Shown here in pieces: positions 58,036-64,000 of a stretch of DNA of 64,000 bases. The DNA is from Verrucomicrobia bacterium LW23. GTDB lineage: Bacteria > Verrucomicrobiota > Verrucomicrobiia > Methylacidiphilales > UBA1321. The translations under genes and the position numbers were made by a program. The notes beneath the pieces were generated by a model. The model was given only the letters and a program-made list of their open reading frames with translations. It made no database searches and had not been told where the DNA came from. Position 1 is the first letter of the stretch. Each line of letters opens with the position of its first letter. Location: the NCBI GenBank assembly GCA_003054695.1, contig QAZA01000010.1:345602-409601 (forward strand), given 5' to 3'.

Positions 58036-60015
58036 CTACGCGCCCGCGCGCTCCGGCCCAGGCTCCGCGGCTTTTGCGCCCACCTCATCCATCTGCTCCA
58101 GCGCGGCGGAGCGCTCGCCGGTGGTGGCCGCTTCAGCGGCGTCGGCCAGGCAGCCGTCGCGGATAGCGGCTTCGGTGGCGGCGATAAACTTTTGCGCGGC
58201 GGGGAAGTACTCTGCGGTGCCTCGGATTTTGGCGAGCTCGCGCAGGCTTTCCGCCTCGCGGGCGCGGAAGACGGCGAGCGCGCTTGCGGTGGAGTCGGGG
58301 CAGACACCGAGCTCGCGCAGGGTATCGGAGGCGAGATCCAGCGCGCTTCCGAAATATTCGTGATACACGTTGTCTATGTTCCTGTTTATCAAGTCGTAGG
58401 CATGGTCGCGGCTGGTGGCCCGTGCCAGGATTTTGACGTGCGGAAAGTGATGGCGCACGTTGTCGACAATCTCCAGCGCCTTGGCTTCGTTGTCGATCAT
58501 CAGAAGCAGGAGCTTCGCGTTCTCGATGCCGGCGGCGCGCAGGAGATCGAGGCGCGAGGCATCGCCGTAATAGCCTTTAAGTCCCACGCTGCGAAGGAGT
58601 TCGATCTGTTCGGAATCGAGGTCGAGAATGGTGGCGCTGACGCCGTTGGCGCGGAGGAAACGAGCCGCGATATTGCCAAAGCGGCCGAAGCCGGCGATGA
58701 TAACGGGGCAATGCTCGTCGATCTTGTCGGGCTCGCGCTCCGGCACGGGGGCGCTCGTGCGCAGGCGCGGCACAATCACCTTCTCATGCAACGCAAGCAG
58801 CAGGGGTGTGGCAGCCATGCTAAGGGCGATGCTAAGTGTCAGCAGCTTAATGGTTTCCATGGGAAACACCGCGTGCTGGGCGGAGAAGCTGAGGAGGACA
58901 AAGCCGAATTCGCAGCCCTGGGAGAGCGCGAAAGCGAAGAGCAGGGAGCCCTCCAGGCCCAGTCGGAACGCTCGACCCAAACCCCACAGTACCAGGAACT
59001 TGACGACAATAAGCGTAAGGATGAGCCCAATGACAACAACGAGGTTGGCGCGCAACAGGGCGAAGTCGATACTTGCCCCAACGGCGATGAAAAAGAGGCC
59101 GAGCAGGAGGCCTTTGAAGGGGGCGATCTCGGCCTCCAGCTGGTGGCGGTATTCGCTGTCGGCCAGTACAACGCCGGCGACGAAGGCGCCGAGGGCGGGA
59201 GAGAGGCCCACTAAATCCATAAGTAGCGTGGTGCCAAAGACTAACAGTAGGGCGCTGGCGGTAAAAAGCTCCTGAAGGCGCGCGGCGGCGATAAGGCGAA
59301 ACCAGGGGCGCACGAGGAAGCGGCCGCCAAGGAGAGCGCCGAAGACAAGCACCAGCTTGCTGATGTGGAACAGATGCTCCATGACAGTAAAGCGGGCCGC
59401 GCTCTCGCCCGGCACGGCGCTGATGGCAGTGACCGCGGCGTGGGCGTGGTTGATCTGGCTTTTGTCGAGGACGAGTGTGCCTGTCGACATGGCCAGCAGA
59501 GGCAATACGGCGAGGATGGGAATGACAGCGAGATCCTGAAAAAGCAGCACGGAAAAGGAGGCTTTGCCGCCCGGCGTGCCAAGGAGGCCTTTCTCCTTAA
59601 GTGATTGCAGCCCAATGGCTGTGGACGACAGGGAGAGTATCAGCCCGGCCGCAATGGAGGTGTTGAGGCTGAAGCCGGCCAGCACGCCGACGAGGGCGAG
59701 CGCCACGGTTGTTAACACAACCTGCAGCCCGCCCAGGCCAACTATGGCGCTACGCAGGCGCCATAATGTAGCGGGGTGGAGCTCCAGGCCGACAATGAAG
59801 AGGGTGAGGATGACGCCAAACTCGGCGACGTGCATGATGTCCGACGAGCGCTCGCCGACGATGTTGAGAGCAAAGGGCCCGATGGCGGCGCCGGCCAACA
59901 GGTAGCCGAGCACGGAGCCCAGCCCCAGCCGCTGGGCAATAGGCACGGAGATAACGGCCGCAGCCAGGTAGCCCGAGCAGTGCTGGGCGATTGTCGGTAA
60001 ATCCATGGATGCCAT
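58036..60015 (-). CDS. CPA2-family cation/proton antiporter with TrkA-N domain (Kef-like)
   Basis: 659 residues from the ATG at 60015 (an ATG at 60006 is also possible). About 12 membrane helices in the first 390 residues (GSVLGYLLAGAAIGPFAL, SLSSTAIGLQSLKEKGLLGTP, the SLSSTA motif being typical of CPA2). The C-terminal cytoplasmic part is a RCK/TrkA-N Rossmann domain: CPVIIAGFGRFGNIAARFLRANG, with GYYGDASR. This is the KefB/KefC group of K+/H+ or Na+/H+ antiporters. A linker of acidic residues and an Ala/Glu-rich tail follow. No KefF-type ancillary gene is adjacent. Confidence 0.93.
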   Translation of the reverse strand: MASMDLPTIAQHCSGYLAAAVISVPIAQRLGLGSVLGYLLAGAAIGPFALNIVGERSSDIMHVAEFGVILTLFIVGLELHPATLWRLRSAIVGLGGLQVVLTTVALALVGVLAGFSLNTSIAAGLILSLSSTAIGLQSLKEKGLLGTPGGKASFSVLLFQDLAVIPILAVLPLLAMSTGTLVLDKSQINHAHAAVTAISAVPGESAARFTVMEHLFHISKLVLVFGALLGGRFLVRPWFRLIAAARLQELFTASALLLVFGTTLLMDLVGLSPALGAFVAGVVLADSEYRHQLEAEIAPFKGLLLGLFFIAVGASIDFALLRANLVVVIGLILTLIVVKFLVLWGLGRAFRLGLEGSLLFAFALSQGCEFGFVLLSFSAQHAVFPMETIKLLTLSIALSMAATPLLLALHEKVIVPRLRTSAPVPEREPDKIDEHCPVIIAGFGRFGNIAARFLRANGVSATILDLDSEQIELLRSVGLKGYYGDASRLDLLRAAGIENAKLLLLMIDNEAKALEIVDNVRHHFPHVKILARATSRDHAYDLINRNIDNVYHEYFGSALDLASDTLRELGVCPDSTASALAVFRAREAESLRELAKIRGTAEYFPAAQKFIAATEAAIRDGCLADAAEAATTGERSAALEQMDEVGAKAAEPGPERAGA

Positions 60016-60140: not shown

Positions 60141-61811
60141 TTAGCGTGGCGTACCCGCCTCCTTACGCAGGATACGTTTGATTTCTTCCACCGCGGCGGG
60201 GTAGCGGAAGGTATTGTGGCCGCCGCGCACCACCAGCTCGGATTCAGCACCGGCAAGGTGGCTGCTTTTGTAGGGAACAACGCCGTCGGTGCCGAGTTCC
60301 CTGGGCCCTGCATGTCGTTGGCCTGCAATGGTATGGAAGGGCACTTCGGGCGGAATCTCGGCCAGGGCGCGCAGGGCGGTGCTTTTGGGGGAGAGCGTAC
60401 GGATGGAGGAAAAGTGGCCGTCGCGATAGAAACGCAGAGCCTCGGGCGTCATCTTGTCGGGGTTATCGTTGGCTATTTGCGTAAAGCCAACGCGCAGGGT
60501 GCGCGGCAGGCGGACGAGGAGATTGCCGATGATGCCGGCCGGCGAGTCGGCGACCGGACTGCCCCGGTGCGGTGCGGAGACAAAAATGGCGCGCACGACC
60601 CGGCGGTTGCGCGGAAACGTCATGATGCGGTGAAGCTGGGCGATGTCGCCGCGATCGCCGGCCAGTTGCTCGGGCGGCACGCGGAAGATACTGGCCCACA
60701 AGCGGTTACCGCTTGCGCTCACCAGGGTGTGGCTAATGACGCCACCCATGCTGTGGCCCAGCACGACAATGCGGCGTGTGGCGGGGTCGCTGCTGTCCGG
60801 GTCGATGTTGTGGAGCAGCGCGTTGAGGCTCTCGCGCAGGCGCAGCGCGTTGGCCAGCACGGGCGTTCCGCTGGTGTAGTAAAATTGCCATACCTGATAG
60901 CGGGCGCGCAGGACGGGGTCCTGCCGTATGGAGTTGACGAGCAGGCCGAAATCGACGGGCGTGGACTGAAGGCCGTGCACCATCAGCAGGGGGATCTTGT
61001 GCGGATCGTACGGATCGAGCATGTAGATTTGCTGGCGATGGGTTTTGATCTCCGGGTTAAGCATGCCGCCAAAGCCAAGGCGCTTGAGGTGGGCGGCGCG
61101 CTTGATCAGCATCAGCCCGTCGGCGGATACATCGCGCGCCAGGGGCAGCGTGGCGCCGTTAAGGGTAACGGTGGCGGCGGTGTTGGGCACGAGATCGAGC
61201 ACGGCCCGCGAGCCGGCGCGGGCGGGGCGGCCCGGGCGGTAGATGGCCGTTGCGCCCTGAAAGAGGCCCTCGCGCGGGTAAAGATCGGCCTGAGATGTGG
61301 CGTACTCGATGATGACCGGGATGCCGGCGCCGGGCGTGAATGATCCCGGCGTCGCCTTGGCCAGGTAGAGCTTGCGCGGTTGTATCGTCCTGGCCTCGTG
61401 GGGGATATGCGAGGCGACGGGAGGAATGCGCAGGTCGATACCGGCGGCGGCCAGGCGCGTGCGGGCGGTTTGCGGCGCAGTTCCATCCAGCGCGGCCGCC
61501 AGCTTGTGGGTAGCGGCGTTGTATTCTGCCAGGATGGTCGGCGAGGGCGCGGATCCCCCCCTGCCACGGCCCAGCGAGTGATAGGCGGTATCGGCGACAG
61601 CGCGGTCGGCAGGCGTGAGGCCGGCGAAACCCAGGCCGCGCGTGGCCGCAAGGCCGGCGTCCGGTTGCCGCAGCGGGGCGCAAGATGTGAGGAGAAGGAG
61701 GGCAATCGCTGCCATTGCCACGGGCGCAAAGCAGGCAATGCCGATGCGAAGGACGGCGGCCTGCTCTCTCGGGCTTGGTTTACGGACACCGGAAATGCAG
61801 GGGTTAGACAC
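60141..61811 (-). CDS. Lipoprotein alpha/beta hydrolase (lipase/esterase)
   Basis: 556 residues from a GTG at 61811; an ATG at 61715 is possible, but the GTG supplies the positive charges needed for a signal peptide. A lipobox, LLLLTSC, around the first 50 residues makes it a lipoprotein. The hydrolase part shows oxyanion loop LLMVHGLQSTPVDFG, nucleophile elbow VVLGHSMGGVISH, and probable acid/His region DGVVPYKSSHL ... VVRGGHNTFRYP. An extra N-terminal domain (about 50-270) precedes it. The substrate is unknown; lipase, acyl-hydrolase or wax-ester activities are all possible. Confidence 0.85.
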   Translation of the reverse strand: MSNPCISGVRKPSPREQAAVLRIGIACFAPVAMAAIALLLLTSCAPLRQPDAGLAATRGLGFAGLTPADRAVADTAYHSLGRGRGGSAPSPTILAEYNAATHKLAAALDGTAPQTARTRLAAAGIDLRIPPVASHIPHEARTIQPRKLYLAKATPGSFTPGAGIPVIIEYATSQADLYPREGLFQGATAIYRPGRPARAGSRAVLDLVPNTAATVTLNGATLPLARDVSADGLMLIKRAAHLKRLGFGGMLNPEIKTHRQQIYMLDPYDPHKIPLLMVHGLQSTPVDFGLLVNSIRQDPVLRARYQVWQFYYTSGTPVLANALRLRESLNALLHNIDPDSSDPATRRIVVLGHSMGGVISHTLVSASGNRLWASIFRVPPEQLAGDRGDIAQLHRIMTFPRNRRVVRAIFVSAPHRGSPVADSPAGIIGNLLVRLPRTLRVGFTQIANDNPDKMTPEALRFYRDGHFSSIRTLSPKSTALRALAEIPPEVPFHTIAGQRHAGPRELGTDGVVPYKSSHLAGAESELVVRGGHNTFRYPAAVEEIKRILRKEAGTPR

Positions 61812-61997: not shown

Positions 61998-62405
61998 ATG
62001 CATATAAAGAAATGTGTTATGCAAGATTTCATCTATATTATTTTTGCCATTTACGGTTGTTGCTTTGTCTATTGCTGCGCCACGGTAAGCACACTTGCCT
62101 CGCAGGAGGAAGCACTGGAGCAAAAGAAGAACCCTGTCTCGCACGTGATTGCGGAGCTGAAGCGGGAGACAGGCCGCCTGAACATTATGGCGTTGCCCAG
62201 GGGCACGCAGAACGCATTCGACACCTTTCTTCGGAGCGGCGGCAGTCGCATTGTCAATGGCGAGTACCCGGCCGGCTGCAAGTATCCGGATATGTTTCAC
62301 TTTACCATCTACGCCAACGCCGTTACCGGCGAGTACTGGGTGCATCAGACCGGCGGGCGCGCCGGTGTCTCCAAACATTACGGGCCAATGCAGCAGCAGC
62401 ACTAA
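61998..62405 (+). CDS. Small secreted or membrane protein
   Basis: 135 residues from the ATG at 61998 (an ATG at 62019 is a later choice). A hydrophobic, Cys-containing N-terminus (MQDFIYIIFAIYGCCFVYCCAT) followed by SQEEALEQKKN suggests a signal or anchor with a possible lipobox-like Cys. The rest is a small domain (YPDMFHFTIYANAVTGEYWVHQTGGRAGVSKHYGPM). No family recognised. It is divergent from the lipase gene. Confidence 0.6.
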   Translation: MHIKKCVMQDFIYIIFAIYGCCFVYCCATVSTLASQEEALEQKKNPVSHVIAELKRETGRLNIMALPRGTQNAFDTFLRSGGSRIVNGEYPAGCKYPDMFHFTIYANAVTGEYWVHQTGGRAGVSKHYGPMQQQH

Positions 62406-62536
62406 AAGGCGGGCGGATTTTGAGGCACTTTTGGACGAACAGTGCGGTAGCATTTGCAAAAAAATAGACGAAAGTTACTTATTCAGTCTTCCTTCTTGTA
62501 AAGTTAAGGAGAGTGCGGTTGCATTGTGCAATCTCC

Positions 62537-63784
62537 ATGAAATTCTCTCGCGATGCGTCTGTCATCCTTATAGTGGCCGTCGTACTTATTGTCAGCGGCC
62601 TTACGTTTCTCTCCATCCGCATGTTCAGCGGGCTTACCGATGAGGTTGAGCAGGAGCAGTTTCAGTTGATGGAGACTATCCTCAATGCGAGCATTCGCGC
62701 GGCGGAGGAGCGCGCGCTGGCCCGCGCCGAGCTTATCGCCAATCTCCCCTCCGCGCGCAAATTGCTGGCCGCCCGCGACCGCGCCGGCCTGCTGGCGGAG
62801 TTTGGCGACACGTTTAAGGTGCAGAAGGAGAAGTACGGCGTCGACCAGATCCAGTTTCACATTCCTCCCGCCACCTCCTTCCTGCGCCTGCACCGGCCAC
62901 CGGATCCCAACAAGCCGTTGGACCCGGCCGACCCGGCCTACGGCGACGATCTCTCGCGCTTCCGCCCCATGGTACGGCTGGTGAATGAGGACCAGGTTCC
63001 CCGCAAGGGCCTGGTGATTGCGCGGACGGGGCCGGCCATTTTTGGCGTGGCGCCGATCAAGGACCCCGCGGGCGTGCATACGGGCTCGGTCGACTCCGGC
63101 CTCAGCTTTGCGCCGGTGCTGGACTCCCTTAAAGCGCGCTACCAGATGGACCTGGTGCTGTTTATGGCGGAGGAGCCGCTGAAGAAGTTTGCGACCGGCC
63201 TGCCCGCGCACATCATTACGGAGCAAAACCGGCGCGGCAAGTACGTGATGTTCCAGGCCACCCACTGGGGGCTGATGCAGCAGCTTGTCGGCGAGTCCGA
63301 GCTGGCCACGCTGACGACAACGCGCTACACGCGCACCGTCAACCGCGTCACCTACGGCATTGTGCTGTTGGATTTGAAGAACGCGGCGGGTGACCCCCTG
63401 GGCGTGCTGGCGTGCGCCAAGGATTTCAGCGCATCGCGTGCGGCGGCGGGGCGCTCGCTCATCTGGCAATCCATGCTGGCGCTGTGTGCCATTCTGGCTC
63501 TTGCTGGCGTCATCATCGTGGTGATTCGCGGCTTTGTGCTGCGACCGCTGGAGGTGCTGGGCGAACGCTTTACCGAATTTGTCGAAGGACATCCGCCCCG
63601 ACCCATGGAAGGCGAGTTTTGTGCGGAAATGCAAAAGTTTGTGGAGGGCTATGACCGGCTTCGTCAACTACAGACAGCGGAGTACCCGCCGGAAAGGCCC
63701 GCCGCCACTCCCGAGCCCGACGCGGCCTCGTCCTCGACTGACGCCGCGCCGGCCGCCGCCGCTAAGCACGAGGAGAAATCGTGA
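62537..63784 (+). CDS. Membrane sensor protein with dCache-like domain
   Basis: 415 residues from the ATG at 62537. Two membrane helices (about 7-29 and 308-333) flank a periplasmic domain of about 275 residues. Its sequence FHIPPATSFLRLHRPPDPN ... DDLSRFRPMVRLVNEDQVPRKGLVIARTGPAIFGVAPIKDPAGVHTGSVDSGLSFAPVLDSL is the hallmark of double-Cache (dCache_3-like) sensor domains, which bind small molecules in the periplasm. After the second helix only a short coiled linker (VLRPLEVLGERFTEFVEGH) and an Ala/Pro-rich tail remain, so there is no kinase, cyclase or methyl-accepting output domain. The stop overlaps the next start (GTGA at 63781-63784), so the two products are coupled. Confidence 0.85.
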   Translation: MKFSRDASVILIVAVVLIVSGLTFLSIRMFSGLTDEVEQEQFQLMETILNASIRAAEERALARAELIANLPSARKLLAARDRAGLLAEFGDTFKVQKEKYGVDQIQFHIPPATSFLRLHRPPDPNKPLDPADPAYGDDLSRFRPMVRLVNEDQVPRKGLVIARTGPAIFGVAPIKDPAGVHTGSVDSGLSFAPVLDSLKARYQMDLVLFMAEEPLKKFATGLPAHIITEQNRRGKYVMFQATHWGLMQQLVGESELATLTTTRYTRTVNRVTYGIVLLDLKNAAGDPLGVLACAKDFSASRAAAGRSLIWQSMLALCAILALAGVIIVVIRGFVLRPLEVLGERFTEFVEGHPPRPMEGEFCAEMQKFVEGYDRLRQLQTAEYPPERPAATPEPDAASSSTDAAPAAAAKHEEKS

Positions 63785-64000
63785 AGATTTACCTCTCCAC
63801 CCTGCTTTGCGCAGCGGTCATCGTCGCCATTGCCCTGGCGGCCGACGGCCCGCGCCCCGGCCCGGAGAAGAAGCCCGACCTGCCGCAGCAGCTGGGCCTG
63901 CCCATTAACGTGCTTACCGCCGTCTATTTCCTCAAGATCGACGAACTGGAGGAGAACGAGAATCACTTCAAAGGCACTGTCGACGTTCGTCTTCGCTGGC
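63781..64000 (+). CDS. Putative pentameric ligand-gated ion channel, N-terminus (partial)
   Basis: Starts with GTG at 63781. The visible 73 residues are a signal peptide (MKIYLSTLLCAAVIVAIALA), a short charged linker (PGPEKKPDLPQQ) and the start of a beta sandwich, PINVLTAVYFLKIDELEENE ... VDVRLRW. That pattern (V.V...VYFL.I.ELDE....F.....V.L.W) is how the extracellular domain of prokaryotic pentameric ligand-gated channels (GLIC/ELIC family) begins. The gene is cut by the window edge, so the Cys-loop-equivalent and the membrane helices are not visible. Other beta-sandwich proteins cannot be excluded. Confidence 0.6.
   Translation, partial: MKIYLSTLLCAAVIVAIALAADGPRPGPEKKPDLPQQLGLPINVLTAVYFLKIDELEENENHFKGTVDVRLRW

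Follow-up and report, generated by a model that had tools for sequence, protein, structure and literature searches.

The cellular role of prokaryotic pentameric ligand-gated ion channels (pLGICs), and what most of them sense, are largely open questions. The closest described systems are those of Tasneem 2005 (PMC549065): fusions of Cache domains and periplasmic binding proteins (PBPs) to pLGICs, PBP operons, and one Cache operon (Rhodopseudomonas), for which functional cooperation and chemotaxis were proposed. Since Cache-pLGIC fusions and one operon were already reported there, the concept of a Cache protein serving a channel is not new; we found no published test of this two-part receptor proposal, and no paper joining pLGICs and Verrucomicrobia. 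In DeCLIC, a bacterial pLGIC, an extra periplasmic module was reported to affect gating (PMC12664993). A published census placed the dCache_3 domain on kinases, chemoreceptors, and c-di-GMP enzymes, and on no ion channels (PMC4822843). The locus described below is a divergent variant of the Cache-pLGIC pairing with an enzyme neighbour, of which no earlier report was found.

The window, i.e., the whole stretch of 64,000 nucleotides analysed, corresponds to positions 345602-409601 of contig C10 in a 6.6 Mb genome (G000; 95% complete). The sensor gene at 62537-63784 (+ strand) encodes 415 amino acids from an ATG at 62537 to a TGA stop at 63782-63784. Translation may instead start at an in-frame TTG at 62519 (421 amino acids), because the best placement of a ribosome-binding site, a putative AAGGAG at 62506-62511 (+), is 7 nt before this codon. 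The channel gene starts with GTG at 63781 (+), and overlaps the sensor stop codon by four bases (GTGA; 63781-63784), as noted in the sequence-only reading; a ribosome-binding-like GAGGAG (63770-63775, +) is located within the end of the sensor gene, 5 nt upstream of the GTG. The part of the channel gene in the window (63781-64000) covers the signal peptide and the first part of the ligand-binding domain (LBD). Since the contig extends 1,362 bases past the window end, the entire gene was readable (L002:4382-5476; 364 amino acids), and ended at the window-equivalent position of 64875. A small ORF with a hydrophobic N-terminus at 62019-62405 (+; ~128 amino acids), with no Pfam match and no family, is possibly the first gene of the sensor/channel transcript. 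A transposase-like helix-turn-helix ORF (L002:5654-5963) beyond the window end starts 177 bp after the channel gene; it lies at the contig end, and the contig may therefore break in a repeated element.

The sensor was described from the sequence alone as a two-helix membrane protein with a dCache_3-like periplasmic domain and no output domain, and the Pfam and hydropathy analyses agreed with this description. PF14827, whose cut-off is 25.7 bits, matched residues 39-296 with a score of 80.3 bits (E 2.1e-22), and this domain is flanked by hydrophobic helices, one within the first 34 residues and the other between residues 304 and 343. An output domain (kinase, MCP, or GGDEF), which is usual but not defining, was absent, and there was no other Pfam match at E<1. 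The overall layout was TM1, a double Cache ectodomain, TM2, a short HAMP-like cytoplasmic helix region (read by eye against a dCache_3 chemoreceptor, with no Pfam HAMP match), and an Ala/Pro-rich tail. The closest relatives found were dCache_3 chemoreceptor ectodomains; assignment as a chemoreceptor proper was rejected because of the absence of a signalling domain. Among the conserved residues of the distal subdomain, P110, R117, H119, D137, L139, and R143 were retained, while E160 and R169, both invariant among the relatives covering those positions, were replaced by V and F, respectively. Ligand binding may thus have been lost or changed (a different ligand, or none). The alignment-free AlphaFold prediction reached a pLDDT of only 45, and was set aside as poor. 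The sensor was the only dCache_3 protein found in its genome; across the phylum Verrucomicrobiota, the domain scored above the cut-off in 37 of 388 genomes, and almost every other ORF found to carry it exceeded the sensor gene in length (500-2,000 codons in most cases), as would be expected if output domains are encoded as well. Plasmid-borne dCache_3 matches were chemoreceptors, or Cache proteins without an adjoining pLGIC.

The 73 channel residues in the window gave no Pfam match by themselves, so that the suggestion of a pLGIC could only be decided with the sequence past position 64000. The full 364 residues matched Neur_chan_LBD (PF02931; E 2.4e-7, 30.9 bits against a cut-off of 26), with GLIC as the best PDB match (E 3.1e-11), while matches to NCBIfam ligand-gated channel models were below the cut-offs of those models. 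Scored against a profile that was derived from 48 further Verrucomicrobiota pLGICs and left this protein out, it reached 148 bits over residues 8-361 (354 residues), covering all four helices. This wider family is clearly pLGIC, since its profile (A4) retrieved GLIC-based chains over the LBD and membrane domain (5e-69). A signal peptide, the Pro-loop FPFDRQ (residues 152-157), the conserved Arg before M1 (R227), and four C-terminal hydrophobic helices (hydropathy peaks at 228-256, 261-289, 300-331, and 338-364) were all present; the helices and a channel-family profile match were the two features on which the proposal of a channel had depended. Neur_chan_memb (PF02932), the other half of the suggested profile search, did not match at E<1, and was also missed by several other Verrucomicrobiota pLGICs. 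Based on these profiles, the gene product is a full-length, divergent pLGIC homologue, and the profile matches ruled out a chance ORF. Acidic residues ahead of M2 suggest a preference for cations. The protein formed a long isolated branch of uncertain placement in the pLGIC tree, was alone in the compared set in carrying a full 7-residue M1-M2 insertion, and lacked the LPxxxYxT motif after M2 (in the M2-M3 loop; common but not defining, and also missing from a few relatives); normal channel gating cannot be assumed from these properties. The same genome contains a second pLGIC-like gene (L056:4761-6389 on contig C45; 542 amino acids) with a low-complexity N-terminal extension of ~220 residues and no Cache neighbour.

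The most likely reading, plausible with a rough probability of 0.55, is that of a split ligand-gated receptor with two subunits. The dCache_3 protein, having no signalling output of its own, would serve the pLGIC encoded by the overlapping gene as an auxiliary subunit in the periplasm. On sensing a small molecule, or some other signal in the envelope, it would alter how the pentameric channel gates, via ectodomain contacts or via contacts of TM2 with the membrane helices of the channel; ions would then cross the inner membrane in response. Physical contact, the ligand, the direction of the effect, and ion selectivity are all points that we infer. The observations in favour are the identities of the two proteins, the full-length channel homology, the gene overlap, the lone genomic dCache_3, and a fused protein elsewhere in the phylum; those against are the lack of recurrence of the Cache-pLGIC pair in the 42 other Verrucomicrobiota genomes that had pLGIC matches and were scanned, the changed E160 and R169, and the divergence of the channel. 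The elements of the receptor first proposed from the sequence (a dCache_3 sensor, an operon-type overlap, and a real pLGIC) were found; conservation of the gene order in related genomes, suggested as a check in the sequence-only reading, was not. If a Cache protein does regulate a pLGIC in trans, its soluble domain would provide a testable route to the ligand, and the pair would be a bacterial parallel to the auxiliary subunits of animal channels.

The fused protein, from a distant member of the Verrucomicrobiota (G291; L110:184-2205 and L115:3283-5304), has 673 amino acids in the order TM-ectodomain-TM-TM-LBD-4TM, and a gene for a periplasmic binding protein (Peripla_BP_5) begins 12 bp after its own gene. 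Its ectodomain had no Pfam assignment, and the end of the ectodomain weakly resembled the aspartate Cache chemoreceptor CcaA (E 7e-4, far under the model cut-off). The idea of a split receptor fits because of this two-helix ectodomain-pLGIC fusion together with the published Cache fusions and Cache operon. A PBP-pLGIC fusion was also found in another genome (G425).

How often the pair occurs bears on whether the two genes are merely chance or recently acquired neighbours without direct cooperation, next to a transposase at which the contig breaks. Among the 43 Verrucomicrobiota genomes with pLGIC matches that were scanned, dCache_3 was beside a pLGIC in this genome alone (0 of the 42 others); in the rest of the order, channel matches were only weak or distant, in genus g15; and the transposase-type ORF closely follows the channel gene. 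Viral and plasmid sequence searches found no pLGIC, and a contig scan seeded on stretches other than FPFD-Q added one distant pLGIC locus, of Opitutia. However, the overlap and the ribosome-binding site are of the type found in translationally coupled operons, fused sensor-like and pLGIC proteins and Cache operons exist elsewhere (PMC549065), and with one dCache_3 and two pLGICs among about 5,500 genes, adjacency by chance would be expected in the order of 1 in 1,000 or less. We accordingly consider mere neighbourhood to be improbable. The Cache protein may alternatively be a separate one-component sensor that acts on another partner (chemotaxis arrays or a histidine kinase) via its HAMP-like tail, and shares only its regulation with the channel. 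Its closest relatives are chemoreceptors, and partners do exist, because the genome encodes 7 MCP signalling domains and 14 CheW domains; with these chemotaxis genes, the chemotaxis proposal of Tasneem 2005 also remains open. Nevertheless, no HAMP domain was recognised in the sensor, which also lacks the MCP signalling domain that array membership requires, the four-base overlap argues for a shared complex, and dCache_3 occurs only once in the genome, which makes a separate sensor equally improbable. A further explanation concerns the channel, which would keep the pLGIC fold without conducting and serve the sensor as a binding or scaffold protein. The isolated branch, the altered M1-M2 and M2-M3 regions, and the lack of a match to the Pfam channel-helix model are consistent with such a role; since the four helices, the Arg before M1, and the Pro-loop are all retained, and other Verrucomicrobiota pLGICs miss the same model, it appears very improbable.

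The split receptor may also be extended, rather than excluded, by the neighbouring gene at 60141-61715 (- strand; start codon uncertain, from 61715 to 61811), which is divergent, lies ~0.8 kb before the sensor, and encodes an esterase/lipase-like lipoprotein α/β-hydrolase (GHSMGG). When the genes around 53 pLGIC loci were clustered, this hydrolase was the one functional family recurring across several bacterial families. It was present in 1-3 copies in 26 of 45 pLGIC genomes, and in six of these 26 it was no more than 7 kb from a pLGIC: besides the present locus, it overlapped the channel start by 4 bp from upstream in G271 and G565, abutted the pLGIC downstream in G639, and was 2.8 and 6.6 kb away in G368 and G601, respectively. 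In the pLGIC tree, the channels linked to it were placed in three separate regions. Linkage was expected in 0.27 genomes against the six observed (Poisson P about 5e-7, or 9e-6 leaving out the present genome), an association that is suggestive rather than formal because the 7 kb cut-off was picked after the data were seen and G271 and G565 belong to the same genus. In an enzyme-receptor module of this type, both the Cache protein and the channel would sense a molecule that the hydrolase makes or removes, for example a fatty acid, some other carboxylate, or protons; esterases act likewise on molecules sensed by nerve receptors. Besides the overlapping and abutting genes, the ligand chemistry of GLIC points in this direction: protons activate this channel, and short carboxylates as well as DHA modulate it (PMC10859675, PMC5378477). 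Against this, the gene of the predicted hydrolase is divergent in the present genome and outside the sensor/channel operon, and the genes are unlinked in the other 20 of 26 genomes. Cooperation of the hydrolase with the receptor is unlikely, but less so than the three alternatives to the split receptor given above. The full three-part module, in which the lipoprotein hydrolase makes or destroys an ester-derived ligand, the dCache_3 protein is a co-receptor, and the pLGIC gives an ion current, is somewhat more doubtful; if true, it would be functionally similar to an esterase plus a neurotransmitter receptor. The recurring hydrolase provides a second handle on ligand chemistry.

Several other neighbours were observed around pLGIC genes. 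In G558, a glutamate-receptor-type channel gene (L066:201-1319, -; SBP_bac_3 and Lig_chan, E 8e-12) adjoins a pLGIC gene with no gap (L066:1320-2417, -), placing two unrelated classes of ligand-gated channels in one apparent operon. An antiporter gene (Na_H_Exchanger and TrkA_N; L123:5783-8014, -) is located 43 bp upstream of the pLGIC in G228, and a KefB/C-type cation/proton antiporter gene is present in the window at 58036-60015 (-), beyond the hydrolase from the sensor/channel pair; a similar antiporter-pLGIC pairing was seen in Microbulbifer (PMC549065). In two families (G368, L012/L074; G424, L014), a divergent pLGIC gene is followed by a gene for an outer membrane protein that is two-partner-secretion-like by resemblance. 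A Ysc84/SYLF-type lipoprotein is the neighbour of the pLGIC in two genomes (L127:5608-6192 and L153:3043-3615), G271 and G601, the latter judged by sequence resemblance, and a DUF1254-type gene was near the pLGIC in both of these genomes.

Among known systems, the Rhodopseudomonas operon is similar to the present locus in having a stand-alone Cache gene in an apparent operon with a Cys-loop/Pro-loop receptor homologue (PMC549065); compared by description, the present locus differs in its dCache_3 protein with two membrane helices, its Verrucomicrobiota host, and its highly divergent channel. The Cache/MCP-N-pLGIC fusions of Methanosarcina, Cytophaga, and Microbulbifer (PMC549065), and that of G291, also place an extracytoplasmic sensor region before the pLGIC core, but in one polypeptide instead of two. 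The extra module of DeCLIC is a fused two-lobe NTD, whereas the Cache protein here is encoded in trans. The α2-δ subunit of animal voltage-gated calcium channels is a Cache-containing protein that acts in trans on an ion channel; the partner channel family is unrelated to pLGICs, and this analogy, already drawn by Tasneem 2005 (PMC549065), only concerns how the system works. GLIC, the proton-gated channel of Gloeobacter, shares with the present channel an LBD plus four helices, the Pro-loop, and the absence of a large intracellular domain; the present channel differs in its M2-M3 loop, and carries the 7-residue M1-M2 insertion relative to its Verrucomicrobiota relatives. To our knowledge, GLIC has been studied as a channel without an accessory subunit, whereas the channel described here would be one of two subunits together with its Cache partner.
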